A stretch of 64,000 nt of DNA, taken from assembly GCF_019649055.1 (NCBI RefSeq), contig NW_026570377.1:186001-250000 (forward strand), in the 5' to 3' direction. A program made the position numbers and the translations under genes. Of the stretch, positions 24,139 through 58,782 are shown piece by piece; within the stretch, counting starts at the first letter, position 1, and each line of letters opens with the position of its first letter. Origin of the DNA: Paramacrobiotus metropolitanus (Eukaryota; Tardigrada; Eutardigrada; Parachela; Macrobiotidae). A model generated the notes under the pieces. It saw only the letters and a list, made by a program, of their open reading frames with translations. It did not search any database and had not been told where the DNA came from.

Positions 24139-25313
24139 TTTTCCGCTGCAGTTTCTTTCGGCAGTTTGTATAGCGAAATAATTTAATACGCAAGATAGTA
24201 TAGTGATAGATTGTTTGTTGTGCTTTTACAAACTTTCTTGTGGAGGTGTGTTTAAATACTAACCACAGACCGGCCAGAAAAGCTAAAGTGCTCCATCATG
24301 TCAGAGGCAACATGATGAAACACCAAAACTACAACATCGTGCATGTGCCTGGATCTCGAACACCTACGTGGCAGAATGAAATCGTACTGTCAGTTTGTAT
24401 AAGACTCCATAGGGCACTGAAAGGACTTTCATCCTAGCTTTTCAAGCAGTCTGAGTAATAATTTAATGAACGACGATAAGAGATAAGGATTCAGGGAAAT
24501 CTCGGCAATTACTTAGCATAATATCCGTATTACGCTGTCGGTTGTGTACGTTCTACCTGTATCTGTACGAGTATGTTATAGTCTGTACACGACCTGCTGG
24601 TGAGCGGGGTACAATTTACAGCACGTACACAACGCAGTGACATGGCAGCTTTCTAACTGCCTAGGTTTTCAAAAGTTTTCTTATGCACAAATAAAATATA
24701 ACAAAGAAACATGACGCGTAAAACAGAACAACAACTGGCTAATATTGTGAACTAAATACGCATTTTTCTAACACATTTATTATGAAGATGTGTCTGCTGT
24801 CTTGTTGCTTTGAAAATTCACGCTTGTCAAAAAATGTATTTTTAGGTGTTACTGTACCTGGTTGAAAAACTACTTGAACCGCAAGCGTTACTAGAGTTGA
24901 CGCAGTCCATAAATGAATTCAGCTGAAAGCTTTCCAACGACGGATAGCGAAAATACAAATAGATAAAACTCTTAGCTGAGTTAGCTCATACAATTCACAA
25001 TCAGGTGCGTGAAATGCTTAGGTACATGAAGTTTTATATAAAGACATCTGTGTGCAATTTTCCACCTTTGCAAAATATTCTCATGCCTTTTTTAATCTTG
25101 AGAAGAAGTTGCAAAGTTCCGTCTGCCAGCGCAGATTCACAAACGGATGAATATGCTTGCACGAAAACCGGACATGCGGACAATTTATGAAATCGCAACA
25201 AAAAATTGTTCCAAGTCGACTATGTATTTTCTGCTGTTATTTTAGAGGCATTCGCAAAATGTAAGTAATAGACCACCAGTACAAAACGCTCCCCATATAT
25301 AATGATGGCGCGA
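24139..25313. other. Intergenic, P450 B to P450 C
   Basis: Upstream region of P450 B and 3' flank of P450 C. Open frames at 24240-24437 and 25005-25190 on the plus strand have no recognisable domain. No repeat was recognised. Confidence 0.5.
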
Positions 25314-27604: not shown

Positions 27605-28475
27605 TTTAGTGGTAAATTCTGGGAGGATTCACAAGAAAAATGCGGGAAAAGCTTTGTAATGATATAACGGTAGTCGTGTAAAATCCGCAATCCAAGTACG
27701 TGTGGGAAAAGGCTTTAACCGCAATAAAAGAGTTTAACTTATTAAGCAGCAACTATACAGGCAGATCTAGGCACTGAGGCAACGCCAGGCTTTGGAGTTT
27801 AGAGTAATAACTGCGATAGTTTCACAACATGTTCATTCATTTGGCCTTTGCAAACCAAAACAATAATGACGATACTTATAGTTCATAAGTTGCAGCAGAT
27901 TTGTGACGCCAACAAGAATAACAGTTCAACAAGTACAGGAAACAGTCGTTCTATGCAGTTGGATAAAAATGTGCACTTTGTTCCTCGATGCATGCCGACT
28001 TTTCATGAACTTGATAACCATTAACCAAAACAGTGCTCTAGCAGTAATTAAATGAATTCTGATAACAGTATTGTGCGGTGTAGGAATAAGCAGTCCAACG
28101 GTTCATTTTGGATTTGTCCGCTTCTAGCGGAGGCACCGTTACAAGGAATAATTGTTTCTATACGAGTAGCGTCTGTACCTGCCAGTATTTAGTATTCTAG
28201 CCTAGAATAATCTCATGCCTAATCATAATAAATGTTGTGTTGTACCTTATAAATGAAAATTATTCCCATGCATTTGACTCAAGTACTTTACCGTACTACA
28301 AATGGCTCAAAATTCCTGCACAGGCAGAATGCCGGTTCGACATGTTTGTAAAATAATAAGCACACCTTACTTATTCATCTAATGCGATTCATTGTAGAAA
28401 TAACAACGTAAAATTAAGCACTCAACATAGTAAACCATCAATACAAAACATTCCTTAAGCAAAATAATTATACGC
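27605..28475. other. Upstream region of P450 C, duplicated upstream of P450 D
   Basis: No gene. Stretches near 27841-27860 (GGCCTTTGCAAACCAAAA) and 28165-28360 have counterparts in the same order at 31461-31480 and 32365-32570. This shows that C and D were copied together with their 5' flanks. The promoter of P450 C should lie here. Confidence 0.7.
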
Positions 28476-32827: not shown

Positions 32828-35800
32828 TCACAATGCGAGTAGCCAATATGTATTAATCTCTCCTTTCCTGCAAAGCGAAAACAGTTTGGTACCTTTATTG
32901 AACTTCTTTATACTTCCGTGACTTCTGCCAGATCCATTTCTTACTTTAACGAAAATCAGCCCTCTGGATTCAAAACCAACGATGGGTTTATATCAGCCAA
33001 GGCTTTGGTGAGGACTAACGTGAACCTTCCCGCTGCAACAGCAATCAAGAATTTCGCAAGTACATACGGTACGCAGAAAGCGCATTAACAGGAGAACTCA
33101 CCTTCTCCGGTGGACTCCATTCTACTGGCAGTGTTAACGGTATCTCCAAATCTAAAGTCCAATGGCAGTTATTGCATGTCATCGATTTGACCTTTATGCT
33201 AATGGGTCATGCGTCACAGTAGAACGCGTTACCAACATATACATACAGACAATAGCGTGGTGCTTTTGTCCCGATGACCCCGCAACTACTGGACCTGTAG
33301 CAATAAAGGCTTTACTTTAGTACTTACAACGGGAATAAGGGATGCCTACGTGCTCAACCGTACGACTCTAAAGTATGGCAGCGTGAAGTGTACTGCAAAC
33401 GGTGCACTACGCTCAGTCTTATGCTTTATCCAAGATTGATAGCTACTGTGAATTGCTGGAGATAACATGGAGCTTCTGATTCGATTTTAGAACTAGCCGT
33501 TGTTCACTGTTTTGTTTAAGCGATTCTAGAATAATCCATATTTTTCTCTACAAAACGAAAGTAATAAGGTCCTTGTAGCATCAACGAGAAAACCCCGTTT
33601 GTAGCGTTTTTGGGGTGCCCATCTCAGCATGCTTTGCCTCAATATTGGAATTTAACATACCTAGGCCGCAACAGTTGGTGCAGCTACACACACTGCTGCA
33701 CTGTGCATACGTAGGCGTCCCTTATTACAGCTCGTGAAGAGTAGCACTATTAATTGGGCTTTAAGTCGACTTAACTTGCTTACCCGAATTTATCCCGATT
33801 CTGATGCTTAATTCCATTTTGTCGTCCGTCGTGTCGGCTGAAATTTTACAGCGTTCCAGAATCGCCCGTCCCAGTAAGCATAACACATCCGCATGATTAT
33901 GGTTGCGCATTGGTATACCGCTAGATATCTGAGAAAAGGCCATCACTTCTCATAAATCAGCATATTATTTTAACTTTAGGAAGTGTTACCATGTAACTAT
34001 CGTTGATGGTTTCCACTTTATAAGCATCGTAGTACGGTACGACCTCGTCGAACGCCGAATGTGTGCGATTTAAAAGGTCAATTACTTCTAGTGGCGAGCA
34101 CTTCATTACTAGCTTGGCAAAAACGGGTAAGTCGCTAAATAGAATGGATACACTATCGAAGGATTCCGCGTTGAGTGGTTCCTTATTGCGTAGCTGTTTT
34201 ATGATGGATCTAAAAATTCAATAAAAATAATTAAATGCTCTGCATTCCAACCCTTTGAATTTAGAATTAACTATCTGTAATTGACAGCAGCCAATAGCAG
34301 TACTGCTGTACCTTGGAAGCATTTCGGCAAGGAGCATATCGGTTTTGGTAGTTTCCTCAACCAATGTGGCGGTTTTGGCCTGTACCAGATGTTCCAACTG
34401 TTGCGTCTGCTGGTCAAGCAGTTTGAGCATGTGCGAAACCACGTTTTGCGGCAGATTAGGAAGCTTTTGAAATGATCGCTTAATCCCAAATATTGGCGGT
34501 CGTAGATTGTAGTCGCTCCGCATACAATCCTCAATATCGATCTCCAGTGGGGTCTTCTTTACCGTTCCATCCTCGGTGAGTGACGACAAAGCTACAAATC
34601 AAGACAGAATATTACCGGGACCATTGCGGAGTAAACTGTAAATATATTGTGCAGTGACCTTTTTAGCTTTAAGGCATCAAATGCAATGATGCCAAAACCG
34701 TGCACGTCATCCGCACGACATACTATCAAATGGTTTTTTGCTTTGTTTAACGCGCATCATTTTCGGCTCGGTGTTCACCGCTTGGGATATTCGGTCGAAG
34801 CCGGCGTGCGATATTTTCAACGTGAACCGGCTATCGATGAAGCAGGTTGTAGCGGTTAGCGTTCCATGGTATCCGAGCGCCGAACTGTGTATATACATCA
34901 GTCCCTGCATCACAATTTGTAGAACTTCAATAAAATTATTATTAGCTCAAATTTGTGAATTATTAGTACAGTATACTGAACCGTTAAATTTAACATACAT
35001 AGTGGATTTTCCGTGTCTCAAGGCCGTTATGAGCAGACACCATATAAACAAACTTTCTGGTACAAAGTATTTTGTATTTAAACATTCTTTGATTTATGAA
35101 ACAAAATAAATTATTATGCTCATTTTTCACAGTTCAAAACTTTCTAAGTTTTTAAGGAAGAGGTTAGTGAATCATTATATTTAAGTTATTGAACTTCCTG
35201 GAATTGCGTATTATGCAACCAATATTGTAATAAATGTCGGCCATTTGATCCTTTATTCAGCGCAAATTTAATCAGCTGAATTTTATCAGGACAAATTACT
35301 TTACGCACTAAGAGACGAATCATGAAACGCGTTGCGATAGTGGCAAAAGTCTGTCACGCGATCCCTGTAGGCCATTTATTCCATACAAAAAAAGCGCTTA
35401 CTTTGACGAGGTCATAGAGAAACGACAGCCGGACGGCCACATCGGTGAAATTGTTCTTCTGACTGAGGACGTCATGTAAGGTGCCACGATGACTGAACTC
35501 CATTAATAATTCACACGGGCCTTTCTCTTCAACTTTTACCCCATAAAACCGCCCGACATTGGCGTGGTACAAACCATGGACCTGTCAAAAAAAAGAGTAA
35601 TCAATATTTACCTTTGTCAGCTGCATGGTGAATAACTAACGACGGTTACCGACTTACCGTTAAACTTATGTTCCGAAAGGCTTTATTCCGCGACAAGAGC
35701 TTGACGTTCAGTCTATCCGGAAGGGAAATGGACAAAACCTGCTGATTGTCTAATTGCAGCGACGGTCCATGGTACGTTAATGCACAGACACTTTCGTGTG

Positions 35801-38800
35801 ATTTGATGGAATATTTGCCGGTGGATGGCGTTATACCGGGCTTATAAAGAAACATATGCCGAAATTCTTGCTCTTTTATCCGTTGCCTAAAGTGAAATAG
35901 CATTGAAATAATCTCGTAATAAAAAAACAACAAAATGAACCATCAATAATAATAAATTTGTTAATCTCCAAATAAAACAAAGGTCACAGAAAGTTCGTAC
36001 CGATAATAGTATAGCTCCACACGCCATAATTATTAGGGCGCAAAGACCGAGTACTAACAGTGTGATGGTCAGGTCATCTAGAAGGGAATCGTAATAATTA
36101 TTACAGTCATCTAATTCATATCAAGCACAACTCTGAACGTTGCTTTTATGTGATTATATTGAAATTCGTTTCCTGTCTTTTCACTTTACTTCCTAAAGCC
36201 AGACAATGCTGTCCATCAAATCCACATTTGGGATCATTGGTCGGAAACGCTGTGGAATTATGCCATTTCAAAGCTCCGGATCCACAATGTGAAGTTTCTG
36301 TATTTCCGTATCATACTTTGCAGCCAGCTGCAGAGCACGAATAATCAAAATACCTACTCGGTGGTAATCGCCTGCGATACTCGAGAATCTTATCTTTAAT
36401 TAACCGGCAAGCACTAATATATCTATGAGTTCCGCTAACAGTTTTAGATGTACAGGTTGTGTAATTTTACTTATTTTAGGCAGTTTTTCACTTTTTTGTT
36501 TTTCTGCGTTGTGCTTGTCCAAACGCTTTTAGCTAAAACTTGAAACTTGCCTTTCAGGGCATACATTTTATGTACGTGATTTCTCATTTCTAAAGATACA
36601 AAGCTCATATATGAACATTACAATGTACAGCAAAACGATACTACTATTACGCATGTCAGTAAATAAAAGCCCGAGTGGTCTGAGCAGACGTCAAAGGTGA
36701 CAATTAATTTCCGAAAGGAGTTAAAATTGTTGTATGAGAGCGCACTCGTTGTTGCGTATTGCGGAAACATGTTCTATTGATACTAGTGCCAGAATACAGT
36801 TTGTTTCCGGGAGAAGCTGGGACTTACAAGCATCACGATTAATTCATTAATAATCATTTACCTCGAATTTGCCGTTGCGGGGGTTCAAGCGCAGCAACGG
36901 AATGAGGAAGCTGGCCATGCCGGATCTGGCAACGCGGGTGGAACTTGACCGTTTGCTATACATCTGCTGGCGGAGGTTGTGCGCGAACTGTGCCGGTGTC
37001 ATGTTGGCCATTTGATCGACAGATCGATTAAGGTACTGTACAACCAGGGAAGCACCAGGCATTAAACAAACAACCACTTCCGCTCTCTTCTGTACTGAAC
37101 AATAAGGATTAACACATACCTCGGCAAAATTCGACAGCAGATCGTACATTAGCGCCGTGGCTTCGTTTTTCTACGCAAAAGAATAAAACGCTCGTCATTG
37201 ACGGTTAAATCATCATTAAGCGAAGAAGTAAATATTGTACGTGTGAGCATTGTATGTGTACCCGGTAATTGAGCGGGACAGTGATGTTGTAAACACTCTG
37301 GGATGTTTGAGCGGTTTTATTGATAAATTCCTCCAGGTCATCCCATTCGAAGAGTGTGTCCGATGAGATAATTACCGATTCAAAGGCTTTCCTGGCTTTC
37401 TGTCAACAAGATTATGTTTCGCATCGAGGATTTTTCCGCAAAACATTTACAACCACCGGGAATGTTAACGCACCTCATCATCCGCGTCATTCGCTTTCCA
37501 ACTGAGCAAATACGGACTACCGGGTGTTGGCTGCAGCGCCAAGGTGAAAAAAATCTAGCCAAAATAAATAAAATTTTAATTTGCGTTACACGTAATAGTT
37601 GACCTAATCCGCAAATATTATTGTAGTTTCTGAGATATTTTATCAATAAAAAGACCTAGAAAAAGTGCATCGTGTTGTACAGGCAGTTACTAGGAATTTG
37701 TTGTAAGAAAATCTTGATTTCGTTTACACTTACACCAAAATGACATAATATTTTCGCAGAATTTTTAATACCATGCCTTGTTAGCCACTGCCAAAGAAAA
37801 CATCAGCAGCGGTAAACGGAAGCAGATTACTAGTGCATTCCCTTAATATTACTTACAAAGTCTCCATTTGTCATGTTTAATTCGTAAGCCGTAATCTGCA
37901 AAAACAAGCAAAGAAAAATTAATATGAACAAATTTCTGCAAAAACTGTAAAAACTGAAAAGATTTTCCATATTTCATTGGCAGTATACACAGATATGCAT
38001 GGCTTTCTAATTCCCTCATGGCCAGAAGCCAGAAAACTGAATTAATATGGTTGCAGCCGCTGCGTTTCACACCAGAAGGAATAAGCTACGAGACAACACA
38101 AGATACAGTATGTACAATACATCTGTACATATACACGTACCATGAATTCCCGCAGCAGAGGTGGGTTGATGAAGACAAGGATCACTGCAAACATCAGAAT
38201 GAAATTGTTATTTGCGAGAGATAGCAAACCGGATTGGCAATTTTAGCAGTGTTTATACAGCCTGTGACTTAAAGTATAAAATCAATTATCCATAAGCAGA
38301 TTTATGGCAGTACATCAGCAACGGAGAACCGCTTAATACTATTATTCTGCATTATGCCGGTTTTAATTTTAAAAATGCACTTCTAGTTATACAGATACTA
38401 AACAAATACAGCACTAGCACCTCACCTCGCGTGTGATTACGCAGTTCATTCAGTACACCACGGTATTGTTCTTTCCCAAATACCGCCAGATTGGTGTACG
38501 CATGGGGAATGTACACTTGCTGGACATCGATCCTGTTATACAAGCCGTCTTTGATGAATGCATCACAAAAGTACTCCGACCAGCTCATGCCGACTGGCGG
38601 ACAGTACAAGCCCAGGTTTTTGGTCCACTGATTATCCAGGAGAACTTGGGTCACGGCGGCCACCATATCGGTGCCGGGCAGTGGGCCCAGCTGGACCATC
38701 GTGGGAAATTTCTCGAAATGGGCTAGATCAAAGTTGGCTGGGTTCGTTGTCAGGAAAACCGTATCAGTGGCTAATAAATTACAAATAAGTTAATGGAGTT

Positions 38801-38859
38801 TGGTAAATCCCGAGAAACACAGCAGGAGTTAGATAAGTACTACTGAAATAATAGTTACA

Positions 38860-38923
38860 TATACTTCGCCTGCTGCCTTATATGGGCTCCTCTTACCTTA
38901 CTTTTCCTTATCTGGGCTCCCTC
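38860..38923 (+). mobile_element. Solitary terminal inverted repeat of the 41.5-kb element
   Basis: This 60-odd-bp stretch (TATACTTCG, then TGCTGCCTTATATGGGCTCC and TTATCTGGGCTCCC) matches, with several changes, the end of the inverted-repeat element at 41462-42113. No partner end is visible nearby, so it is a remnant. It lies in an intron of the guanylyl cyclase. Confidence 0.7.
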
Positions 38924-38936
38924 TAGTTAAAACAAC

Positions 38937-39054
38937 TGCAAAACTGCAAGTACTAATGTAACCGCGCACAAGGTCGGTTGCGCGCACTTCCGGCAGCACT
39001 GACAGTATGGGCAACCGACCTTGTGCGCGGTTACATTAGTACTGCAGTTTTGCA
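38937..39054. repeat. Near-perfect 43-bp hairpin
   Basis: Arms 38937-38980 and 39012-39054 are reverse complements apart from one extra A in the left arm. The loop is 31 nt. The stem includes TAATGTAACCGCGCACAAGG. It lies in the intron between the first two exons of the guanylyl cyclase, just beside a solitary transposon end. It may be a foldback element or give rise to a small-RNA hairpin. Confidence 0.9.
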
Positions 39055-39618
39055 TAACTATATAAACAGCGTATCTATATATAATCTATTGCGTACGTCA
39101 CGATCTCATAACGAAATTTATATCTATAGTAATTATTTTCATGCTGTATTTTGGTAAGTGCCTAATTAAATAATTTGCTTAACAAATTTAACCTGCTGCA
39201 AAGTTGGCTAAATGCACCGGGGCCACGTTACACCAGTCTGCACTGACAATCACCACCATATCATTTGTCCCCAATGTATCCTCAAAAACCATTTGATGGT
39301 TTTCATAGAAATCGGCCCATGCCGGCAAAATGTTATCATTTGACGCTACACATTCTGCAGAACCCGTGGATACTTTGCTATGGTCAGAAATATCTAAATC
39401 CATTGGGGTCAAATTGAGTCGTAAGTGGCCAGTAACAAGCACTTCTCGATATCTTGAAATATCACATCATACGCCGGTCGCATAACCTGATATCCGCAAG
39501 TATCGTCGTTGGTCAGTGTAATGATTACCACGGTGAGATTGATAAAATTATCGCAATATACGGCATTTGCCAATAATTCTGCATACAACAACAAATGGAC
39601 GGCAGAAAATCTGATCAT

Positions 39619-40919: not shown

Positions 40920-41422
40920 CTGACGCAAATCTTGCCAGTTCCATTGCAACGAGCTCGCACCATTCTAAAACGTAATAGAAGATAATAACACAAGTGGTTC
41001 AACTTTCTTAACAAGTTCGCACATTTCATGACCGCACCATTATTAATCAGAACCGTCAAATCTTTCGTAGACCGGATGCCAGCAGATTCGCAAGAATACA
41101 CCTTTCCCACATTGTCGGCGATGTGAACGACTGCGCTTTCGCATTTATCGCTGAAATCGCTAGCCGAATTATCAACCATACCATGATAATCCCAGCGCTT
41201 TATGGTAATCTGGTGCAGAATAGAAAACTGGCTAGTTAGAATTTCCAGCGCGGCGTCTTGGGCGGGAGCCATTGTGTAATAGCCCGCGGAGTCGTCGTTC
41301 GTGGCCAGTACAATGATTACTGACAAGTTTCTACTAAGTTCAGCCACTATTTGGTATATCATTGAAATTGAAATCAGTGCACAGCACAGAACGCTGTGTT
41401 GATGAATTTTCCGCAAGTACAT
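40920..41422 (-). pseudogene. ANF-receptor ligand-domain fragment, copy 2
   Basis: Two exons, 41038-41422 and 40920-40964, joined by a 73-nt GT-AG intron in phase 1. The first encodes a signal-peptide-like start (SVLCCALISISMIYQIVA), then LSVIIVLATNDDSAGYYTMA, which matches the first exon of the receptor guanylyl cyclase at 39.6 kb. The 45-nt second exon encodes EWCELVAMELARFAS, matching ADWCNVAPVHLANFAAG there. It ends with a usable donor, but no following ligand-domain exon, membrane helix or cyclase domain is recognisable before 39.6 kb. Probably a truncated duplicate. A short secreted protein, or splicing onto exons of the downstream gene, cannot be excluded. Confidence 0.7.
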
Positions 41423-41461
41423 CTCGTGAAAAATTAATGCATTTAAAAATAACTAAAAAAC

Positions 41462-42113
41462 TATACTTCGAATGCTGCCTTATATGGGCTCCCCTTATAT
41501 TACTCTCCCTTATCTGGGCTCCCGGGCAATATGAGCAAACCTCTACATGGGCGGTTGCGTTATAACTCACACTTTCGCAGCTGTTATCAGTGTTATGCCT
41601 GACTGAAAATTTTGATTTATATAAAATACTTATTTTGCCAGTACTTTTGTAGCATTTAGTTTCTTTCAAAATGCTCAGGTTGCATCAACGGCAGATTCAG
41701 AATCTTTCTAAAATTCAAAATCTTTCTAAATTTAAGATCTTTCTAAACGTCGCCCGCTTAAATGCACTAAGAACCCCATGAAAAAATAAAAAAAATTTCG
41801 GCATAAGAAATTTAAAAGAAATTTCGGCATTTTCGGTGATAAGAAATTTCGGCATTTTTCAGTTTGTTCATTGGCAAATCCGGTTGAAATTAATGAAAAA
41901 TATTATTATATATATAATATATATAAATATAAATCGGATGTGAAATTTCGGAATTCTTTGGTGTGCTCACTTGTAAATCCGGTTGAAAGAAGTAGAAAAG
42001 GGTTTTGCTATAATCCGATAAATTCAATTTGACGGGTATTGCTAACTAGCCGGGAGCCCAGATAAGGGAGAGTAATACAGGGGGAGCCCATATAAGGCAG
42101 CATTCGAAGTATA
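41462..42113. mobile_element. 650-bp non-autonomous terminal-inverted-repeat element
   Basis: Left end 41462-41525 and right end 42050-42113 are reverse complements over about 64 bp with only a few differences (TATACTTCGAATGCTGCCTT at the outer end). The outermost bases fit TA flanking duplications, as in Tc1/mariner-type elements. The inside has internal short repeats (AGAAATTTCGGCAT, AAATCCGGTTGAAA) and an AT-rich ATATATAT run but no transposase. It sits just upstream of ligand-domain copy 2. Confidence 0.85.
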
Positions 42114-45100
42114 AGTACGGAGTACTGCTGGAAGTCTCGCCGAGCTCAGGGTAAATACGGTAACATCATCGTGCACATACATATTATTTCATGATATAGT
42201 GCAATAAGTGCATACTGTAGCCTGATCGGTTGGTTCAGTTGAATTAAGTTTTGGGAGCTACATCATTACCTATGTTCAACTCCTACCTAGTTAATGTTAC
42301 TACTCTAGCATCTCAAGTACCAGGTGCAACACTGGAATGATCAACAATCCGGTGTAAAAAGGACATCGCGATTCTGGATCGAGCGCAACAGCTGAACAAG
42401 CAAAAATACAAGTAACAGCTCCATGTCGATGGCCGTGGTTGTGTTACTGTGCTGTTTAACTTGATCGGCGCCACTTCCCACGTTTTGCCACCAGAAATAA
42501 GAATTTAATAACCATAAGCATTTCTGGTGACCTTTCCGAATTCTCATGGCTTCTTGCTTGAAGCTGCAAGCCGGTACGCACCGAGGGCAAGATTAAATAC
42601 CGAATTTTCACGTAGTGCTCTTACAATAACATTCATATTTGACACGTCTGGTTAAAAATATGGGAACTGCGTAAGACCACAAGTTGTCCAGAATTTGTGG
42701 AACGAACAACTGCAAGTTTCCGAGAGTTCTACCAGGACATAGCATAGCATACCAGAATAGCATACCAGAAGTGATATTCTGTTCGTATGCTCGCACGAGC
42801 AGACGACTCAGGTGAGTGATCATGAGTCCATATACAGTACGTAGAAGATATCACTGCTCATTTTCTTTGAAGGTGTAAGGCAATTAGGTATAAATATTCA
42901 GCGACTCAGAATTGCCGGTATCTGTTACTTCTTATGCTTCAATTTATAATATGATGAGAATTCCGCAATAGTCGTCCGAGCGATTAGCAAAAATATTACA
43001 TTTAAAGCAGTTTAGTACAGTAATCTACTCTGTACAACGTGAATCATAGCGTTGACACTCTTGTCTCTTATCATCAACAGTATTATGACAAGGCGCCTCA
43101 TCAAGGCATCCAGACTAACTAGGCTGTTTTGTTCTTGGGATATGCCATATCAGCACAAGTATCAATTACAGTGATCTTTACCTGTCTAGTGTTCAAATGG
43201 CTGAATTCTAGTTAAACGATCTGAACTAAAGTTAGGAGACGATTACCGTATTTTTCGGATTAGAAGCCCGGGGCTTTTAACTTTTCATCGTTACCCGGGG
43301 GGAGGCTTATATGGTGAGAGTATTTTGGAAAAAACAAAGGGGGGAGTATTGTAAAATCAGGGGAGGCGAGGCTTATATGGTAGAGGAGGCTACAGTTCTG
43401 GAGGAGGCTATCAGTTCGAAAATACGGTAATTGTTTTATTATCAGACCGCTTAATTTATAGTCTTTAACGCTTTATTTGCTGACTACGTTAGTCTACTTT
43501 TACTCGAAACTGCGAAGGGAGCAACAGCTTTGCGCCTAAGAGATCCGTAATCTGTAATGGCTGCTTAAATTATACGTTAAGCGAAGGAGACACCCAAAGT
43601 CTGGATGAAGTATCAGGTGCGCACTGTTTACCGTGTGGGTGTACACATGGACCAGTTATTTAACAAGTGCGCGTGTTTGAAGGATTTTAAAAAAAACCTT
43701 CTCGCATGACTTCACGACGGTTAATTCGTAATGCACATTTGGGAATATTCCAGCAAGACAGCAATTGCCAGTCGCAGATGTCTTTTTCCACAGATAATCG
43801 TGTTTTGAACAGAATTTTTCTGCATAACTCATTAAAGTATGCAGTGCTGAGTTCAGTTAGCCGGAATGCCGCACTTTATGCAGTAACATCTGTTCGCTTT
43901 TCTCAAAGTCATTGTTTATTTCCTCAAACTTCGGTAATAGTCATACTGCAAGCTCACAGTTTACGGCATCAAAATTATATATAATCATGAATATGAACTG
44001 TGAGCAATCGCACGAGAATTGTACCCGATATCAACGTAAACGTCAAACAACTGTGATGATAACGGTCGGCTTTATGTGTTCGCGGCACTCGTAAAATACC
44101 ACACAAAATAAAGCACTTTGCAAGTCAGCATGGTTATGACACTGGACAGAGCAAGAACATCAGTCACGTAGCGCTTGTCACCCGTGCCGGGCAAGACGAC
44201 ACACGACAGTCGTTGTATCCAGCACTGGGCGAGACAGAGATGTCCACTAGAGAGCTAAGGTCACGAAAATAATGGAAGTTAAACCTAAAAGACAAACTCG
44301 AATAACCTGGACTGCGGATCTGGATATCCTATTCCTGTCCATTTTTATGCTACACTGTGGCTTTCCGATCCATCTTTTTCTCATTCACAATCCACATTGC
44401 TCCAGAAATGCATTGATTTCCTTTACCGCAGGACCAAAACTCCTGGCCAGGCAGTATGAGCGACAGTGAACTTTGTTTACCTTTTTAATGCTTGAATTAT
44501 TACTTTTCCGTTATGAGTGCCGGAGTTTTCACATACATTGACTGATCTTTAAAACGAGCCTCACTAATGTGGGCTTAGTTCAACCTAACTGAGATATTTT
44601 TAAGACGGAGCACCAAGAAGCCCGAAGTAGTTTCCAGATCACTTCCATCGCGCTTTAATTCCGTTCCCTCCGAAAAGATCCAGCTCAGAAATGCGAGCAT
44701 ATACATGTAATATACCATATAGCATGTTTAAATGACCATCGATGTGTACATCGGCACGCAGGTGTTATCCGTGCGTCCAGTTCTTCGAGTCGCCACGGTG
44801 GCCTCGTTGTCCACTGTCGTAAAAATATGTTGATTCAATTTCTCATTATTTGTTGTTTCCTGAAGGCTGCTCTATGATCTTAGCAGGAAGTACCCTGCCT
44901 TTATGACCACAAACAAATTCGGGACATTTTCTTTGAAGAGTAGTCATCATTTCATCGCATCAAGTTTTCTTACAAAGTACTGAGCGGGCAGCTCATTTCT
45001 TACTAAACGAGAAAATTGAAAGGTCACAAAAAAGCCGTAAAGATCCGCCACGAAACTGACCAACACCTGCACAACTCTTTTTACGTACTGGTATAGCAGA

Positions 45101-46031
45101 TTGAATTTAAAATTTCAAGTTAACGTTAGCATTTCAAGATAACATTTCGACATAACGACCAAATTTCAATTTACGGAGAAATTACGCTTTATAAAAACCG
45201 ACATTCTCCTTATAATAATGCAAGAGGCAAGTCACGCAGTGCCAGAAAAATGGGCCGTTGCAGCTAATTACCACTACTCGCCAGTCGTCCTTCTTCTGTT
45301 CAAAGCCTCAATCGCACGCACTGCTCTTTTCGGAACTGCTCAACACCGAAGCATGTCGGAAAGGGCAAGGTTCTGCTAGCGAACTGCTTCTCTTTATTCA
45401 CAGTTCGTAAAAACTTTACAGTTTTCATGCACCCACTTACACGTTCTAATTGCTATCTAAAAATGCAAATTTGAGGAACTTCCCTTCCATTCACAGCTTT
45501 CAGTATTCTCTTCAACTTGCAATTTGTTCAACATTCATCTTAACGCACATAATTCTGGTATCGAAGCCGTGTTTGTCCCATATCTGCGAAGAGCCTATTC
45601 TATCCTTACTGGCGCTATAACTTCACGAAGTAAATGCGCGGGCTCTCATGTTCCGATCATCCTGAGCAGTAAAGAGATCCTGCATAAGCAGCACTCCAGA
45701 CCATAGGTCGCTGTTTGTTCAAGCCGGTTTTGAATTTCAAAATGAGTTCATGCTTCGGAGATTCGCATTTCTTGAAGTGTAACGGTGAAAACTGCATAAT
45801 GTTTGCTTACGCGATAGTCCGGTTATTTCGACCACAGCGAACAGCGGTGTTCGTAGAGAAAAGGGTAAGTACTGTATGTACTGTATATTGTACAATTATC
45901 ATTGTGTACTGTATACTTATAAACGACGGTATAAAATATCTAAATTATCAGGTGTTTAAATTTCTTGCGCAAGTTTTTTGGGGTTAATATACATTAAACT
46001 ATTTTCCGCGTTTTTCTCGACAGAGCCGAAC
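42114..46031. other. Degraded region between ligand-domain copies 2 and 3
   Basis: No intact gene. It contains an inverted-repeat element at 43242-43431. A minus-strand frame at 42608-42823 includes LFWYAMLCPGRTLGNLQ, loosely like AEVVVCLMPGASLVVQ in the cyclase ligand domain, and may be a relic of copy 3's later exons. A short tandem repeat (ATAGCATACCAGA twice) is near 42743-42772. Other open frames show no domain. Confidence 0.4.
43242..43431. mobile_element. 190-bp inverted-repeat element
   Basis: Ends 43242-43257 (ATTACCGTATTTTTCG) and 43417-43431 are reverse complements with one base length difference. Between them is G-rich sequence with repeated GAGGAGGCT and GGAGGCTTATATGGT motifs. 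No coding sequence. The size and ends fit a miniature non-autonomous DNA transposon. Confidence 0.75.
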
Positions 46032-46520
46032 CTGCAGTGAATCTTGCCATATCCATCCCAGAAATTTCACACCATTCTGCGAACAGTACAAATGGTCATA
46101 TGCATGTATTATTTGATCCTTTTTTACTGTCACACGTTTTCATATTTTGATTTTCACAAGCAATGCACCCATACCGCTGCTTATAAGAACAGTTAGCGAT
46201 TCTGTGGGGTCGATGAATTCATTTCCATACAATCTACCGAGAGTATTAATGGCACTTCCGGCTGAGTCTTCGCATCCCATGGTGAAATCCGATACAGAAG
46301 TGGTATTAACCGATGTCGCCATCAGTCGCCTTACATCCCGGAAACTCGCATATCTCTCGAGTAACATCTCGAAGACAACGTCGTACGCGGGCTTCATAGT
46401 CGCGTAGCCACACGTGTCGTCATTCGTGGTGATGGCGATAATCAGCGTAACATTGCCGCGTAAGGTCAGTGACAAACATGGTAGTGATAATAAAATAGCG
46501 GCCAGAAAATGTTGCCGCAA
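46032..46520 (-). pseudogene. ANF-receptor ligand-domain fragment, copy 3
   Basis: Exons 46175-46520 and 46032-46076 with a phase-1 GT-AG intron of 98 nt. The first encodes a clear signal peptide (HFLAAILLSLPCLSLTL) and VTLIIAITTNDDTCGYATMK, the best match to the cyclase start among the copies, with PAYDVVFEMLLERY. The 45-nt second exon encodes EWCEISGMDMARFTA and ends in a donor. No further receptor exon is recognised with confidence downstream. Its exon frame is unbroken, unlike the full-length gene's first exon. Confidence 0.72.
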
Positions 46521-47844
46521 TAAAAGACATCAGTACTTATTTGGTTTGATAACTAAATGCCCCAACGTGGGCTTAGTTATCAAGACCACCTTGCTGTATT
46601 TTTTAGCATATCCCGATCGAACCAGAAACCTATCTGGAAGTCGTTGTGCTAACGTAAATTGCTTGACCTGACCCCGTTCAATCGTTTAACATCTGCTTTA
46701 AATCCCTCCACAATATTTGAAGGGACAATCAATACACAGCTGCCGAGGTATCGTCAAGGAAAAAATTAGTCAGAGAACACAGTAACTTGCCAAAACGCAC
46801 ATAATTACATATACCAGTGCTTGAAAGAGTGACGCTAAGCATCAGTCCGTAGATACGAGTTACATACACCGGTCCATAGATACACACAGGTCGTTTTTCC
46901 CCATTTGATTTCTTAAATTACGTATGTTATATCTACATATATACGGTTTTACAATGTGAGGCGTAAGTCCGAGTAGCTTTTCAGGATGGCATTATTAAAA
47001 CATAAGTACCCGCGATTACTTCCGTTCCGAAATCGCACTCATGGCAAACGGCATTCTACATACTGCATACTTCAGCAGTAAATGTAAACTGATTTCATAT
47101 GCAGGATGCGACTGCAATAATGTGCACCGTATCCCCCGCTCCCGGCAAACCTTCGCTGACATTACGTTATTATTGAAATGCATACATTTGCATGCAGTGA
47201 CATGTGATTTATGATGCTTAGGTTAAACTAGACCAACCCAATCCGTTTGGCATTCCGCGTGGGAAAGTTCAAAAACTTCCTGTCCGAGCCTCGAGATAGT
47301 ATAATTAAGCAACTTTTCAAAGTACCTGTGTGTACTCAGATCCCTTAACAATCGGTCGGAAATATCAGAGAAAATACTCAGGAAATTAAAATTCTTTTTG
47401 GAAGCAGGATACAGTACGTTCAAACGCCCTTCCACCGGCACGTTTGCAGTACAGCAATTACATCAAGTCCAAATTTTCAGTATCAGTTTACAAATTATCC
47501 ATTGCATCGTAATCGAATAACTGTATCATTTTGTGTAATTTACATTTGATCATGTGCCTTGCGAATATTATCTAACTGTGAACAAGTAAGCTGCAGACGA
47601 TACCGCTGGCAGCTGCCAGATTAGAGTTATCAGAAACGCCTGTGCCATAAAAGTGGCCACAAGGCACAGACACAGTTGACACTTACAGTATATTCAAAAT
47701 TTTGGGCGGGTAGTAACAAAGCTAATTCGTTTTGGCAGTTCTTGTAACCAAGGCACAAGCACAGGTATTAAAATAATTGGCAATAATCAAACCATGACCG
47801 AACTTACCATTAGATATATCCTAATCGTAAGTGCATGTACATAC
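46521..47844. other. Region between ligand-domain copies 3 and 4
   Basis: A minus-strand frame at 47223-47441 (72 aa, includes NFNFLSIFSDISDRLLRDLS) could be a diverged later exon of copy 4, but I cannot match it to any known domain. Otherwise AT-rich with no recognisable feature. Confidence 0.35.
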
Positions 47845-48329
47845 CAGATGCGAAACGGGCAACTTCCGACGTAATGTAGTCATCCCATCCTGGAAAAGAA
47901 TTTACCCCTTGTTGCAAACTTATAAGACAAACTATTGCGTGGAAAAGCACTGTAATTTTGTACGCCTAAAGACGTGCCTCCAAGAGTCAATACCACAAAC
48001 TGTTCGGGATTACTGCCGAAACCGTGATGGAGAACGTTGCTGTAAAATGCTCCAAGTTTGTCGATTATGCACGCGACACTGCGGACATCCCGAAATGCTT
48101 GGGGACAGTTGTTGGCCAGATCTAGTTCATATCGTTTGACATGCATAATACAGGCAAATTCGTCGGCAAGCATCGTATTGATAACGCGGATTGCGGGGGC
48201 CATGGTGGCGTAACCGTAGGTGGGATCAGTTGTAGCGTAAAGGTTTACGATGGTCACATTGAAACTAATACTGACAGCTGATAGCATACCAATCACATGA
48301 AGAAATATTATCAACGAACTTCTAAACAT
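47845..48329 (-). pseudogene. ANF-receptor ligand-domain fragment, copy 4
   Basis: Start codon at 48329 gives MFRSSLIIFLHVIGMLSAVS, a signal peptide, then NVTIVNLYATTDPTYGYATM and the cyclase-like ligand-domain start. Exon 1 (47978-48329) would end at a GC donor (GGAG-GCACGT). Exon 2 (47845-47889) is again 45 nt and encodes GWDDYITSEVARFAS, matching the other copies, and is followed by GTATGT. Both exons are in phase. Later receptor exons are not found before copy 3, so it is a truncated duplicate or a gene whose remaining exons have diverged. Confidence 0.65.
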
Positions 48330-50066
48330 TTCTGATTTTTGGCTGCATGTAATTATAAAGTTGGCAAGAATCTTTTTGCTCCATTTTACAATCGTGCAAT
48401 GCATGCTTCCGCGATACTCGCTATGAAACCTGGCGTAATTTTGCTGTATACACACGCACACGTTACCGGTTAGCATAGCAAAATTGGTAAAGACAATAGG
48501 GGAAAGTGTATTTCTGTTTGCATTTACATTTTGTCACGAGTGCATTTTAGAAAAAGTATCGATCACTCTCCATTCACTGCTATTCCGTCGAGTATGCGTA
48601 GAAAGTTACACGTTTATTGCAGACTTGCAATAAGCAAAGGTCAGGTTACAATTTATATGAATGTTTGTCAAGACAAGAAACGTGCAACCAAAGCACAGTA
48701 AAACCATGGTAAAACTAGTCGTTTTTAACTTATGGTCTTGCTAGCTGGAAATACATATTGGTTACTGAAGATAGATTGGTACGATTTTGTTCTATATTTC
48801 AAACATAAGCGCCAATATTTACTGCTGGTTTTAATTAATAAACAGTCAGGAAACAATTTGTTGCCGAATTTTCCGTCTCGAAGGAAGATGATTCACAACC
48901 CGAGCGATCCTTGTTATTTGATAGTCCTACCATTCGGACGATCATAGGTCAAGGTTTTGCGCACTCCAGGGGTTCTCATAATGCCACAGCCGCCCACAAT
49001 TACGCAACTTGCACAGACGGAAATGGCTGTAGCACGCAAACGGAAATGTCTGCCGGTGGTTTCGGCGCATTTTTTGCCAATGATATATGGATAATCCGAT
49101 TATATTTTTGTGAGACCGTAGAAAAAATCAAGATAAATCTTAAACGTCCTGTCTAGCTCTCGTAATGCAGATACCCTGCGAAATTTCAACCTTTTTTATG
49201 TCACACACGATTATGTTTAAGCATTCATCAAGACTATCGTAATCTGCATATATTGTAGATGTATGTATCTAAATAGTAATACGGCAAATGCATTTCCTGC
49301 CTGTGAATAAATTGCATATTCAGTGGATGCATGCATTATATATGTACAGTATATATGCAGTGGCTGTCTTTTGTAGTTTCAGGTACACTGGTAGATCCTT
49401 TAAGGCCATGGCTATGAGGGCTTAATTCGTTTAGAAATCATAACATTCCTAGTTATTCAAAAACATAAATAGTTTCTCGCTCTTCCTGTGTACATAGTTA
49501 AATCCAAGAAAAATATATTTTAGCTTCACGTGCCATTTATTTAAAAGAATCATTAAACTGATTAGCGATCATCTTTAAGGCAAGATACATTTTCCACAAT
49601 ACGGCACACGTCATTAAGGGAGCATCCTTCTTATAGCGGCATCTTACAATATCATACCGCGAACTGAAAATCTCCAACATCTTATAACAAGCGCTATCGA
49701 ATGGCACCGGCGTATATTTTCCTCTCGCATCCATTGTTTCGCGTAAAGGTTTCACAGTTTTTCATCCGCCCCATTGCCTGGCGTTAATGATGCCGCCCGT
49801 TGCGATCGACGCACCACGGGTCACCTGTCGTCACGCTTGTGGAATCAGCCGGGTACAGTCGACGGCGGAAGCCCCATTTAAGGCGCGATTATCAGCCAGT
49901 CAACGCCAATAGATTCTTCGCAGTTACTTCATGGGATCATCGTTAATCTTAAGCATCCACGTATATTTCCCAGCTAGACCGTCTTGCTTCGTGGTGTCAT
50001 ATTCTACGGTATAAGTTATCTGCTCAACGCATCGCATCGCATCGCAACGCTAACGTAACCGCTCAA
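48330..50066. other. Intergenic, ligand-domain array to GPCR
   Basis: Divergent upstream regions of copy 4 (-) and the GPCR (+). A minus-strand frame at 49537-49755 containing YKMLEIFSSRYDIVRCRY resembles the copy-3 stretch FEMLLERYASFRDVRR and may be a fifth, decayed ligand-domain copy. Repeated CGCATCG near 50027-50050 precedes the GPCR start. Confidence 0.4.
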
Positions 50067-53000
50067 ATGGCACCGTTATTCATTCCCAACACCACTGCAT
50101 CGCTGCGCAACATTACCGGTGACCTTTCGCGCAACATTACCGGTGGCCGGTTCAACGGTACCGGGGGTCACAAAATGCCGTTAGCCTTCGCCGTCTTCGG
50201 CTACTGCACCATCGGTCTGGTGGTTTTTGGCTTCGTAGGCAATGTCCTGATGATAGGCTCCATGTTCCACGGGAAACTGTACCGGCATACGACCAACCAG
50301 CTGCTGATCAATTTATTCCTAGTCGGTGCCATCTACGCCGCCCTAGCCATGCCGGCAGCGGCCTACTCCACCATTCGACTGGGTTGGCACGCCGATAACG
50401 GCAGCTGCCGGTTCTTCGGCTTCATGGCGTTGAGCGGCTGCTTCGTCTCCTGCCTCAACCACGCCGCCATCGCCGTGGCCCGCTACTTGGCCGTCGTCCA
50501 TATTGGCAGCATCTCCAAGCGCATCCAGGACCGGGTGGGGCTGGTGATGCTGGTGCTGACCTGGCTGATGCCGTACGTCGTGTTCACCTTTCCCTTCTTC
50601 GGTGTGGGCGCCATGTACGGATACAAGAAGTCGGTGGAGCGGTGTCAGTACAGCAGTGTGGAAGCGCCCTTCGTCAACGCCTACCGGTTCATCTTTCAGA
50701 TTGCCCCCATTGTGGTCATGTGTATCTGCTATACGCTCATTGTCTTCAAAGTGTGTCTGGTGCGGACAGCGGTGGGGCGGAATAAGCAGAAGGACACCTC
50801 GTTGCGCTTCAAGCACCGGTTCAGTGTGGAGTTGGGTATCGCCAAGCGAACGGGAACGGTAGCGGTGTTTTTCATCGTCTGTTTTCTGCCCAGCGTAGTA
50901 TGGAGCTACATACCCGGTAGCATTGTCCAGGACCTGACGGAGAATCTGGCACCGTCACTATATCTGCTCATGTGGTTCGGTAAGTGTAGCTACCGGTACG
51001 TGAGACCTTAATAGGTCGGATTATACACGTTTGAACTTCAAATGTTAAAGCGCAGAACAAGCTATAACGAAGTACTTATTGTATTTTTCTATGAAACTTG
51101 CGCAGTATTTTGCACAGTAGCTGAGGTCACTCACGAAAATTAACTGTTAACCAACTTTCTATTAATATAATATTATCCTTTCTCATCCCGTGTACCTACG
51201 TTATCTTCTTTACAATTCATGGTCGGCTCAAAAGAATCTTTATTCGGTAAGGAAACTACGTAATTAGCAGCTACCTGAAAATCATATAATCACTCTTCAC
51301 CATTACAGTAATGAATTTTGGTCTAAATATATGTATAGCATTTATTACCCTGCGCAGAAATATCCATTTTCTGATCCTTTTCAAATTCCTTCCAATACGT
51401 TATTGCTAAACTGTTATAAATTTTGGTCACAACAACCGCACGTTATAATTAAGTGGAACGTTGCCTTCCTTCTAGTACGAGTACTGTACTTGAACATGCT
51501 GTTGCACTGCCAGAGAAAGTAGCTAGGAACCAGCTTGAAAAATAATCGAAGGGATCGCTGTTACTTCTGGTGGTAAAGTACAGAAATAATAAATAATGGG
51601 AAATACTGTAGCTGCACTTAATTCAGCAACATATTCACACTGAAGCGTGATTCGCACTGATTATGCCAAAGCGATAAAATGTATGGAAATCAATAACTTG
51701 CCTTTTTAACAACCCTTCCCTAGTCTACTCCTACAATGTCACAAAAGATCCTCCAGAAAAAGCAGCATCCGCCTCCAACCGCCTGCAGCGCAACGAAACT
51801 GCGTTGCTAACATGAATAATGTCCACGTCTGGAAGTATTGTACAGTACTACATACTCGCACTGTATTGTACTCATTGCATTTTAATCGTAAGATACCGGA
51901 TACATGCATGCGTTATGATGAATATCTATATATATTATGTGTATTGTACAGTACAGTACCGCTACTGCATATGTAGACAGTTTACCACTGATACTGCAAG
52001 AGCAAAACTTTGCTGATGACCTTACCGTCGCCATCGCCTACTCAGCAGTTGTATAAGTATTACACCAATGTAACACCATGAACTGTATTCAGTCTTTACT
52101 TGTTAACTAAAGATTTTAAGTTAAAGTGAAGTTAAAGTTGTTTCGTTAAAGACTGAATACAATTCAATCTAGCAACTGGAAAAGGGCATAACAATAACAT
52201 ACATCGACAGCTAAGCGAGCGCAGTACGTCATCAGCAGGAGTAAACTAGAGTTGGTTTGTGCGAGTTCGGTGTGCGAGTTGTGGGAGTTTGTGCGAGTTA
52301 GCAATAGTAAACAGAGTATTAAACCAAAGTGGTAAAACAATACAGTGACTAAACCTGGTAAAAAAAACTTTTTAACTGGTTATTACTTCTGGAAGCGCCA
52401 TCTAAGCGCTATTGCTGCCGGATTGCTCCAGGTCGACTCCGTATGCTCGATTGGTTTGACAGTTTCTGGAGCAATTTTCTGCGGTGTACTCGGGCTGCCG
52501 TTACTGTTGCCGGCCGGCAAGATGCAATAACCGAATACGCATTAAAAGTTTTGCGTATCAGACTATCAGTCACTAAACTTCATTACTACTATATTATTAC
52601 AGTAAGATTGTACTAATCAATATTTTTAACAGTACAGTATGTGAATGCGTAAAATACTTCAATAAATTGAAAATAATATATGCACGATATGTCAGGTGAT
52701 AGATCTAGGTAGATCACAGTTAGATAACCACGGAATGCATTAGCGCGCGTAGGCGGACATAAGAAGATAAAAGCAAAAAGGGAAGCTTACGGGATGCTGA
52801 AGAAGTTGGCGCAGGTCGAGTTTAATCCGGATTATCGAGGCGGTCAGAGAAACAATAGATATAGACATACATGCAAAACATCATGGGACTGCTATTGCGG
52901 CACGTGGCAGCCGCCGGATAGTAGCGGACAACAGAAACAAATTGTCAACAACGGGCTCAAGAACCATGCCGCTTTTCGTTAAGGGAGTTGACTTTTAAAA

Positions 53001-55561: not shown

Positions 55562-57811
55562 CTAATCGTGCGCTTTACCCGCGTGGCCATTGACGGACGG
55601 AGTGCCGAGTTTCTTTTCGAGCAAATACGCATCGGCCGGCTCAATCCGTTTGTAGTAGTGCTCCGAAATGCCCACCACTTCGAAGCCGAATTTCTTGTAA
55701 AACTGCAGGGCGGCATCGTTGTTGATCTGCACGTGGAGCGTCACCGAGGAGAATCCTTCGCGGGCGCACACCGCCAACACGTGCTGCAAAAGGAGGGTGC
55801 CGATTTTTTGCCGCCGGTAAGGAGCCAAACATCCTGTTTGAAACACAAATCGATTAATAGCTAAATATAATAATAGGTACGGCACATTGTACGTATATAT
55901 AAAGCTGCACTTATTACCACAGCTGCGTAAAAAACAAACCACATCCTCTTATGTACGGTACTGTATTTGGCCTAGCTGGTGCACGTCAGATATTGACACA
56001 GTCGTATTCGTGTAATTATTCTTCTGTATTAAATTATAATTTTATAGTTACAGCCCTGCTCCGCCACACGCGGGCAGTAACAAAATTTCCTTAATTTCGA
56101 ATGTTGAAGTCTACCATTTTTACTTCATTTTTGCATGATAGTCCTAGGTCTATAGCAACTTTCTAAAGTATGCTTCTATGCAAAACGAAAGAGCAGGGGT
56201 TGAGAGCAAAAGTTTTACTTCAACGTTTTTCGAAAAAATCAGGTTGCTTATCACGAAATAACAATGCTAGATTAATAATACTCTAAAAATTGTAGGCGAA
56301 TAAAAGCGAGCAAATGACAACGTAGTTTTTTAACGGACCCTTCCCAACTTCCGTTTAATCCTTAACATCGTCTCTACAAGTGTTAGTTCTCTAGGCATGC
56401 ACATTCTTCGGAAGGTACCGCTTACCAGTTACCATACAAGTCTACGGGACACAGATCTTGTTTTGCGGTCATCTCGAGCACTGATCGCGCAAGATACTTT
56501 TGTTAACCAGTAACGGATACCTTTTGGGCATGTCAATAATTTACGAAAAGGTCCACTCAAAAAAATCGGTTACTGAAATTGCTAGGGAGGCTAGTATAAG
56601 TAAGCATCTCTAAAATGACCGCTACCCCCCATCCCTTAAACACGACTTGGCTCGCTACTGACACTTCAAAAGATCTGTTTTAGTATCTCGGAATCCGCAA
56701 CAAAAAGTTACACCAGAAAAGTGTAAAGAAAAAAATAAACGGCGCACAGAATTATTTTTAAATTTATTTTACGCAACTGCCCACGTGCGGTGCAGCAGGG
56801 CTGTATTTTGACGTACTGAAATTATCAAATCTGACATTTCGACAACAATTGTAGTGCAGTGGCTATCACTTTAAGCGCCAACATTTGCTTTTAATTTACA
56901 GCCTATAATCGTATGAACTTGCACGCAATCAAAATTGTAAATAACATAGCTGTTAATTCAAAAAATTAAGCAGCAATTTAAGCTTATAACTTCGTTTGAA
57001 ACTTTGCCCTTAAACCTCACACATAGCCCCCAAATTATGCAGTTCGTTTCTTGCGGAATTTCTAGCTAGCTAAGTGCTGAACTACTGTAGATAGCGAGGA
57101 TGTCTAGCTGAACACGCTAATTAAATAGAGACATGAGATAGCAACAACTCAATCGAAATCCTGAACCTGACAAACTGAAACGGAAAATCAACAGTAAATC
57201 AGCAAAGGCCCAAATACCGAATTTTCTATCCGAAAAAATACAACTAAACTACTAAAATCAACAAATTTAAGATATGTATTGCACATTTAGTAATTCCGCA
57301 CAAAGAAAATTCAGGAATGGAATAAACTTAGTCACGTTTTAAAGAAAAACGAAGAAACCCAACTGAGCTAAGCAGCCTAACCCCAGCATACTGCAAACTT
57401 TAGGTCTTACAGTTACTCGCTTTCCAGTTCTTCAACTACGGAAATTCTGACTGCTTAATTAAGTTCTTTCATAACAAAAAATCCGGCCTTACCCAAAGTC
57501 ATGATGTACAAACGCCGTCCAGGCGCCAATACGACGGGCTGAGGTGGATTTTGCGAGGAACTGGAGGTACCATTGGGTGCTGCTGCAGCATCGGGCGCTG
57601 CTGTGGTATTCGGTGGAGGCGAGATATCCACGCGACAACACACGGCGCCCACCGCCAGATCATTAAAGAAGGCTATTTTGGCCAAATCACCGGCTTTCAG
57701 AAGATCATTGTAGAACTGATCATTGTAGGAAACCGGAAAAATCACCTGGTTCAAGCGCTTCACCATCTTCAGGTTGTGCTTGGTAATCGTACCCAGCTCG
57801 GCTCTCACCAT
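55562..57811 (-). CDS. NAA50: N-alpha-acetyltransferase 50 (GNAT family)
   Basis: Exons 57493-57811 and 55562-55833 (phase 1, 1.66-kb intron), 196 aa against about 169 in human. Strong match to NAA50: KRLNQVIFPVSYND, FFNDLAVGAVCCRVD, RRLYIMTLGCLAPYRR, LHVQINNDAALQFYKKFGFE and YYKRIEPADAYLLEKKL. NAA50 acetylates protein N-termini and is needed for sister-chromatid cohesion. The catalytic Tyr (LYIMTLG) and His (LHVQ) are kept. Two oddities: an insertion of about 30 residues rich in Pro, Ala, Asn and Ser between CCRVD and RRLYIM, and an acetyl-CoA loop reading RRQKIGT where the usual pattern is RRxGIG. Start chosen at MVRAELGTIT, aligned with the family start. Confidence 0.95.
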
Positions 57812-58782
57812 TTTCTAGATAAAAGATCTAGATAAAAGGACAATAATGTTCAAATTTGAAGTTTCGTGCTTTGTAGAGTTACAGAAAATCTAACAAATTA
57901 GAAATACCAAAAAAGCGACTTTTTACAGCAAGCTGGCTTAGCACCAAAAGCAATATAAAAAGAGACTCAAAACGCTGCTATTGGCCGATTTCAAGCCACC
58001 TCCTGTTTAATGTTTTTAGTCACTACCTTGTAATTAACGATAACAAACTTTTTATTAAAGAAATTCGCGAATTTTGACAATTGGTTTTTTGGTTGGCATC
58101 AGACCGATTAAAAATTCGAGCGATTAAAAAGTTTATCTGGGAAACTGTTTAATCACTTTTCTTAAATCACTCAGAATTGCTTAGCGTACGCCCCTGAAAT
58201 TATTGGCCTCTTTTTGAGCCGATCACTTTTCTGATCTCATTTTAAGTGCTGAATTGCTTGGTTTTTAATTTAGCTTTTAAAGTTAATCTATTAGTATGAC
58301 TGTGCTCCAAAGCGACCAGGCGCGTCATTTCCATTTTCAATTTCTTTTTGCTGTGTGCGAGTACATAATCCGTATACAAGTTTTAGAATGAGTCTGTTTC
58401 TGAATCGTATCAAGTAGCCTGTCTCCACCAATGAATGCACTTTATCACCAGAATTAACGCGCACCAGCAAAAACAACAATAAGGAAACCACTCCACACAA
58501 ACGCCCGTTAAATCATCTTGTAAAAACGTCCGCCTAGGTACTGTATATCTACACATTAAAGAAGCACAACATGCAGCATGCGCGGCCGGAAGACAGCAAA
58601 GACACCGCATGGGAATGCGTGCCTAAAATGATTTAACCAAATATTGCCAGAAACGCAGTGGACAACATTAATACCACCAGAAGAATAAAAAAGATAAAAA
58701 AACACCGACAGCTACCATGTGTCGCGATCAAACAAGGAAATCCTGCCATGTCACGGGGAAAATCGTTTGCGTCCTCCATGGA
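57812..58782. other. Intergenic, SLK/STK10 to NAA50
   Basis: 3' flank of the SLK/STK10 gene and upstream region of NAA50, both on the minus strand. Small frames here have no domain. The NAA50 promoter should lie near 57812-58100. Confidence 0.5.

Follow-up and report, generated by a model that had tools for sequence, protein, structure and literature searches.

Upstream of what appears to be a complete receptor guanylyl cyclase gene in the tardigrade Paramacrobiotus metropolitanus lie three further copies of that gene's front, which raises the question of whether these copies are dead, encode small proteins of their own, or still serve the gene beside them. All three possibilities (dead fragments, short secreted ligand-binding decoys and alternative first exons) had been put forward in a preliminary description of the three minus-strand loci, here called units A, B and C, and we assessed them across the window, that is, the whole stretch of 64,000 nucleotides analysed (contig NW_026570377.1, positions 186,001 to 250,000), whose own numbering is used throughout. 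Our preferred reading, to which we assign a probability of roughly 0.55 on the sequence features described below, is that the locus may form a single receptor guanylyl cyclase gene, in which four alternative fronts stand in tandem before one common set of exons.

By its domain content, the gene at 32.8-39.6 kb is predicted to be a receptor (particulate) guanylyl cyclase. Its translation matched ANF_receptor (PF01094; E = 1.1e-10, 41.6 bits against a cut-off of 25.4, in a protein carrying an X at one frame break), then PF07714 (tyrosine kinase, here the kinase-homology domain; E = 1.1e-11) and then PF00211 (the class III guanylate cyclase domain; E = 3.3e-46, both in a protein with X at two frame breaks). 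A hydrophobic stretch falls in exon E10, the phases mismatch at both E10 borders, and no consistent exon structure was found for the membrane region (36.3-35.9 kb), in which another frame break may lie. The best solved relative of the common ligand-binding part was PDB 1dp4 (atrial natriuretic peptide receptor 1; E = 1.5e-8), which has the same overall receptor plan but differs in that its match begins past the variable front (from query residue 215, and from position 207 in the profile match), the front itself having no direct match in either of the 1dp4 searches. Placing the unit end on the natriuretic peptide receptor structure consequently failed, as the matches begin downstream of it.

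Within the window, four tandem homologous first-exon units occupy one strand, the minus strand, 5' of a single constant set of receptor guanylyl cyclase exons (38770 to 32828), in the order C, B, A, P, where P is the first exon of the complete gene (Table 1); the units are separated by 1.3 kb (C-B), 4.6 kb (B-A) and 1.3 kb (A-P). The outer limits given in the preliminary description hold for A (41422-40920) and C (48329-47845), whereas the open frame of B starts at 46529, with its exon 2 ending at 46032. Exon 1 of A, B and C had been described as a signal-peptide exon, but it combines a hydrophobic leader (13-residue maxima 2.3-2.4) with about 95-100 residues of the ligand-binding region. Exon 2 proved, as described, to be of equal length in the three units and to end in a donor (exactly 45 nt, phase 1 in and out, and GT next in all three); it does lie within ANF_receptor, around profile positions 58-72 and not at the start of the domain to which it had been assigned. 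The phase-1 intron between the two exons (88 nt in C, 98 nt in B and 73 nt in A) is common to A, B and C and absent from P, and P ends at the same place and in the same phase as the other units, with phase 1 and a G before GT in all four. In unit B, a stop codon just before 46529 bounds the open frame, in which no ATG occurs before codon 45, already within the domain; another ATG, at 46530, is shifted from this frame by one base.

Table 1. Front units and common exons of the receptor guanylyl cyclase locus, with donor scores in parentheses.
Feature	Position	Strand	Content and splice signals
Unit C exon 1	47978..48329	-	ATG, hydrophobic leader and first part of ligand-binding domain; GC donor (6.1)
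Unit C exon 2	47845..47889	-	45 nt; phase 1 in and out; strong GT donor gtatgt (7.8)
Unit B exon 1	46175..46529	-	Hydrophobic leader and first part of ligand-binding domain; leader without in-frame ATG
Unit B exon 2	46032..46076	-	45 nt; middling GT donor gttcgg (3.6)
Unit A exon 1	41038..41422	-	ATG, hydrophobic leader and first part of ligand-binding domain
Unit A exon 2	40920..40964	-	45 nt; weak GT donor gtcggc (1.1)
Unit P, first exon of the complete gene	39193..39618	-	Intron-less; frame break near 39440; weak donor gttaaa (1.4)
E3, first common exon	38426..38770	-	Continues ANF_receptor; its only open frame is the one required by the four unit ends
Common exons E4-E9	36862..38184	-	Remaining ligand-binding domain
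Common exons E10-E20	32828..36077	-	Putative membrane span, kinase-homology and guanylyl cyclase catalytic domains; breaks inferred in E17 and E19

Several smaller features of the locus were also recorded. A MITE-like element lies directly upstream of A and a related arm is present in the P-E3 intron, from which it follows that the region has been rearranged. The start-to-start spacings of C-B (1799 bases) and A-P (1804 bases) suggested a 1.8-kb duplication unit, but the intervals had no mutual match at E values up to 1, and we treat the near-equal spacing as a coincidence. Searches of the whole window returned no RNA family at its gathering score and no tRNA.

The units are related to one another: each of the six pairs that can be formed from A, B, C and P scored above every one of its 1000 shuffles (z = 12.6 to 36.9), such that their homology is not a matter of chance. 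An unfiltered profile search, made with the four units over the window's 2749 six-frame segments, raised eight segments above threshold, every one of them from A, B, C or P. Taken alone, none of A, B and C matched ANF_receptor at E values up to 1 in a Pfam scan, and their assignment to this domain is therefore drawn from their likeness to unit P and from the joined proteins described below. The homology to the front of the cyclase that had been proposed is accordingly upheld over shuffled sequences, with the qualification that the matching exon, P, has no intron and carries the frame break near 39440. A tree of the four units contained a B+P split with 79% support, too weak to place P inside the array; a structure model of unit B exon 1 from a three-row alignment (mean pLDDT 48) was unusable for fold search; and none of 16 pattern matches to this exon in viral contigs was confirmed as a relative.

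Searches of the window were also made for other parts of the receptor, using the rest of the ligand-binding domain and the kinase-cyclase half as queries. No trace of the 18 common exons was seen next to any of the units, and the window held no further ligand-binding, kinase or cyclase remnant (the best strays had E values of 3.1 and 0.65, the latter antisense and inside the cyclase gene); the membrane, kinase-homology and cyclase domains are missing from the units, as the preliminary description had stated.

We then considered whether the units have been coding. Amino-acid identity over the aligned parts of A, B, C and P is 26-38%, and for all six pairs synonymous change was saturated (Nei-Gojobori) or the Yang-Nielsen method gave no value, so that the dN/dS comparison between copies proposed earlier could not be computed. 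Codon positions were informative in its place: the pooled p-distances for the three pairs of A, B and C were 0.52, 0.43 and 0.64 at positions 1, 2 and 3, and position 3 was the most divergent in all six pairs of the four units (P = 0.022 down to 3e-6 against positions 1 and 2 together). None of A, B and C contains an in-frame stop, while their five other frames hold 1 to 11. In a neutral simulation of substitutions only, the probability that all three would be stop-free was 0.13, 0.021 and 0.001 at 0.05, 0.1 and 0.2 substitutions per site, respectively; by comparison, the terminal branches leading to A, B and C span 0.5 to 1.2 amino-acid changes per site. Open frames at saturated divergence, together with the excess at position 3, indicate that the units were probably coding during most of their separate history, which speaks against dead fragments for most of that time. 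The excess at position 3 may be a legacy of complete genes to which the units once belonged. The lack of a detectable exon remnant beside them suggests that they were already truncated during this coding history. The marks of a pseudogene (stops, frame breaks and a lost codon-position pattern) were not found in A, B or C, the start of B being a possible defect.

If the units are used by the cyclase gene, the ligand-binding domain should read on from each unit into E3. When placed before the common exons, A, B and C scored 43.0, 40.5 and 45.9 bits against ANF_receptor, with matches starting at profile positions 58, 66 and 51, compared with 39.2 bits from position 86 for the common part alone and 37.8-38.0 bits from position 85 or 86 for six shuffled-front controls joined to the same exons. 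The gain over the shuffled controls is small (2.6 to 8 bits) and is located across the junction for each of A, B and C; P, joined likewise with one extra Gly, scored 41.6 bits from position 50. As judged from these profile matches, the predicted ANF_receptor domain is continuous across the proposed junction in A, B and C.

Splice donors were scored against the 17 that had been assigned to the cyclase gene, which themselves scored 2.8-9.8 when each was left out in turn; one of the 17, at the E10 border, is uncertain. All three first donors fall inside this range (7.2 in A, 7.4 in B and 6.1 in C), although the first intron of C starts with GC, not GT. The outer donors, which would have to join the units to E3, range from 7.8 in C and 3.6 in B to 1.4 in P and 1.1 in A, the last two being below all 17 reference donors. 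This weakness counts against A; it does not by itself rule A out, because the donor of P must work if P makes receptor.

Phase, position, splice sites and the continuity of the ANF_receptor match together favour alternative first exons, the third of the readings first proposed, although a recent death of the units, which we consider less likely, would also be compatible with them. Under the proposed arrangement, transcription would start before the chosen unit, presumably from separate promoters; exon 1 of that unit would be spliced to its 45-nt exon 2 (the two being fused in P), and exon 2 would be spliced to the common exon at 38770. The unit would supply the leader and the first ligand-binding segment, about 110 residues, and the common exons the rest, such that all transcripts would share the membrane, kinase-homology and cyclase parts and differ in the first segment, and the products might differ in their ligands or sites of expression. 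The 700 bases upstream of the four units contain no word of 10 or more bases common to all, and shared words are few. Whether the gene has at least four interchangeable ligand-binding fronts, with one cyclase output wired to several ligands or cell types, we regard as an even bet. Against the array stand features seen in the same sequence, namely the weak outer donors of A and P, the leader of B without an ATG and the frame break in P, all of which would reduce its probability.

The main rival, which we consider appreciably less probable, is that the units are partial tandem duplicates of the front of a receptor gene, dead or dying, the remainder of each copy having been deleted. Partial duplicates are common in fast-evolving receptor families, and agreement in phase is, taken alone, also expected of dead ones. 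Their open frames would have survived because function was lost only recently, and the weak outer donor of A, the leader of B without an in-frame ATG and the rearrangement of the region marked by the MITE-like element and its related arm all fit such a history. However, three stop-free frames at saturated divergence can accommodate no more than roughly 0.1 neutral substitution per site in each unit, good first donors have been kept in all three units (one of them GC), and a recent truncation of three genes should have left remnants of common exons, none of which was detected among the 18 sought.

The frame breaks bear on this rival as well, since those in P and in the cyclase exons could mark a dying gene. 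In addition to the break in P, exons E17 and E19 have one apparent break each, judged from motifs typical of cyclases that stand in adjacent frames. A tandem group of four P450-like copies (14.8-31.1 kb), compared over six exons, served as a control. The copy at 27.4-25.3 kb is intact in all six exons, but the other three shift frame within exons: three exons are affected in the first copy (31.1-28.5 kb), one in the third (23.8-21.0 kb) and one with certainty in the fourth (17.2-14.8 kb). The most broken copy retains three exons free of breaks, and over their 217 codons it differs from the intact copy by a dN of 0.043 and a dS of 0.626; this low ratio (dN/dS about 0.07) implies that it was long under strong selection, yet it is broken several times. 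Base-level error in the record would be the simplest reading of the P450-like breaks, the alternative being a recent loss of the most broken copy. Because a copy is broken here despite selection, breaks say little about gene death at this locus, and the off-frame ATG of B may be the same record noise.

We find it improbable that each unit encodes a short secreted protein of its own, in which a leader is followed by the initial portion of the ligand-binding domain and which would serve as a decoy, as the preliminary description had also suggested, or as a binding partner. Such products would be consistent with the hydrophobic leaders of A, B and C, and retention of the last intron would bring each frame to a stop shortly after exon 2. 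However, to judge by its length, a unit would cover roughly one quarter of the two-lobed domain, which falls short of a single lobe; a part-lobe is unlikely to fold alone, and a unit that ends inside a lobe makes a free secreted product less likely. The read-through tails are 36 (A), 12 (B) and 11 (C) residues long and mutually unrelated, and some other cause would have to be found for the 45-nt exon and donor position that the units share. No poly(A) hexamer occurs in the 1.3 kb after C or after A, although neither absence is significant singly (P = 0.09 and 0.07). Across the C-B, A-P and P-E3 intervals together there are no hexamers against 5.7 expected (P = 0.005, for intervals chosen after the counts were seen), compared with 7 against 7.8 expected in the B-A gap; we give this depletion, which would favour the array, little weight because the hexamer is likewise missing from the 1.5 kb downstream of the complete gene's last exon.

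Least probable of all, and quite doubtful, is an effect of assembly in which the units would be the fronts of ordinary paralogous cyclase genes whose other exons were collapsed or lost in poorly polished sequence: frame breaks in several genes do indicate that the quality of the record may be limited, but the window contains no N, the units are spaced at 1.3, 4.6 and 1.3 kb, it would take three losses at one and the same exon border, and base-level noise does not delete 6-kb blocks.

The preferred reading, a tandem array of alternative first exons, has counterparts in other gene families. In Drosophila, the gustatory receptor gene Gr39a contains a tandem series of large exons that each end in a GT donor, any of which is joined to three small 3' exons, and such large exons have been gained, lost and sometimes pseudogenised (PMC2204066); Gr23a and Gr28b are further such loci. 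The likeness lies in the tandem variable exons, which in the chemoreceptor gene are spliced to one shared 3' set (PMC2204066), whereas Gr39a encodes seven-membrane-span receptors with known products and the present locus a predicted guanylyl cyclase receptor, in which the variable unit is two exons (one in P). Vertebrate UGT1 and similar clusters likewise place tandem variable first exons, encoding the variable recognition part, before a constant set to which they are joined; these are enzyme clusters of unrelated protein families for which the variable/constant organisation is established (PMC1885805).

Among receptor guanylyl cyclases themselves, diversification is described as lineage-specific expansion of whole genes (PMC1435932). 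Caenorhabditis elegans gcy-28 is a receptor guanylyl cyclase with splice isoforms, of which c and d are expressed in different cells; the accessible portion of that source neither describes a tandem array of homologous ligand-domain exons nor states which exons differ (PMC9249223). We found no report of such a first-exon array in receptor guanylyl cyclases in the open-access literature, outside which most subscription papers lie. If the units are used, a single gene would swap its first ligand-binding segment by the choice of first exon while keeping one signalling output, and the exon-array mode of receptor diversification seen in Gr39a would extend to a single-span enzyme receptor. The scheme is already known from gustatory receptors and UGT1 enzymes; its use in receptor guanylyl cyclases would be new.

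Among the four tandem P450-like gene copies of the window, exons were interrupted by frame shifts in all but one (three of the four), and yet, despite its frame changes, the most broken copy differed from the unbroken copy far less at nonsynonymous than at synonymous sites (dN 0.043, dS 0.626). The complete receptor guanylyl cyclase gene also carries frame breaks, which are listed with the other features in the table.

Features of the window other than the array of cyclase front units
Feature	Position	Strand	Basis
P450-like gene copies (n = 4), in tandem	14834-31107	minus	named by eye
Frame break, complete cyclase gene	33243-33294	minus	inferred from cyclase motifs
Frame break, complete cyclase gene	32945-33032	minus	inferred from cyclase motifs
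Frame break, complete cyclase gene	near 39440	minus	
Open frame, 352 codons, resembling a rhodopsin-type receptor	49953-51011	plus	identity by eye
Open frame, 375 codons, with cysteine-rich repeats	13138-14265	minus	
Two open frames	55562-55948 + 57455-57814	minus	

Immediately upstream of unit A, a two-exon front unit of the array, lies a MITE-like element (41462-42113) with inverted ends of 64 nt that are 97% complementary. A single arm related to this element was found at 38856-38921, in the intron between P (the first exon of the complete cyclase gene) and the common exon that follows it, and the same intron holds, 3' of P at 38949-39043, an inverted repeat of 40 nt (arms 93% complementary, 15-nt spacer).

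The rhodopsin-type-like frame and the array lie on opposite strands. By eye, the cysteine-rich repeats look like LDL-receptor class A repeats, and the paired open frames jointly resemble an NAA50-type N-terminal acetyltransferase.
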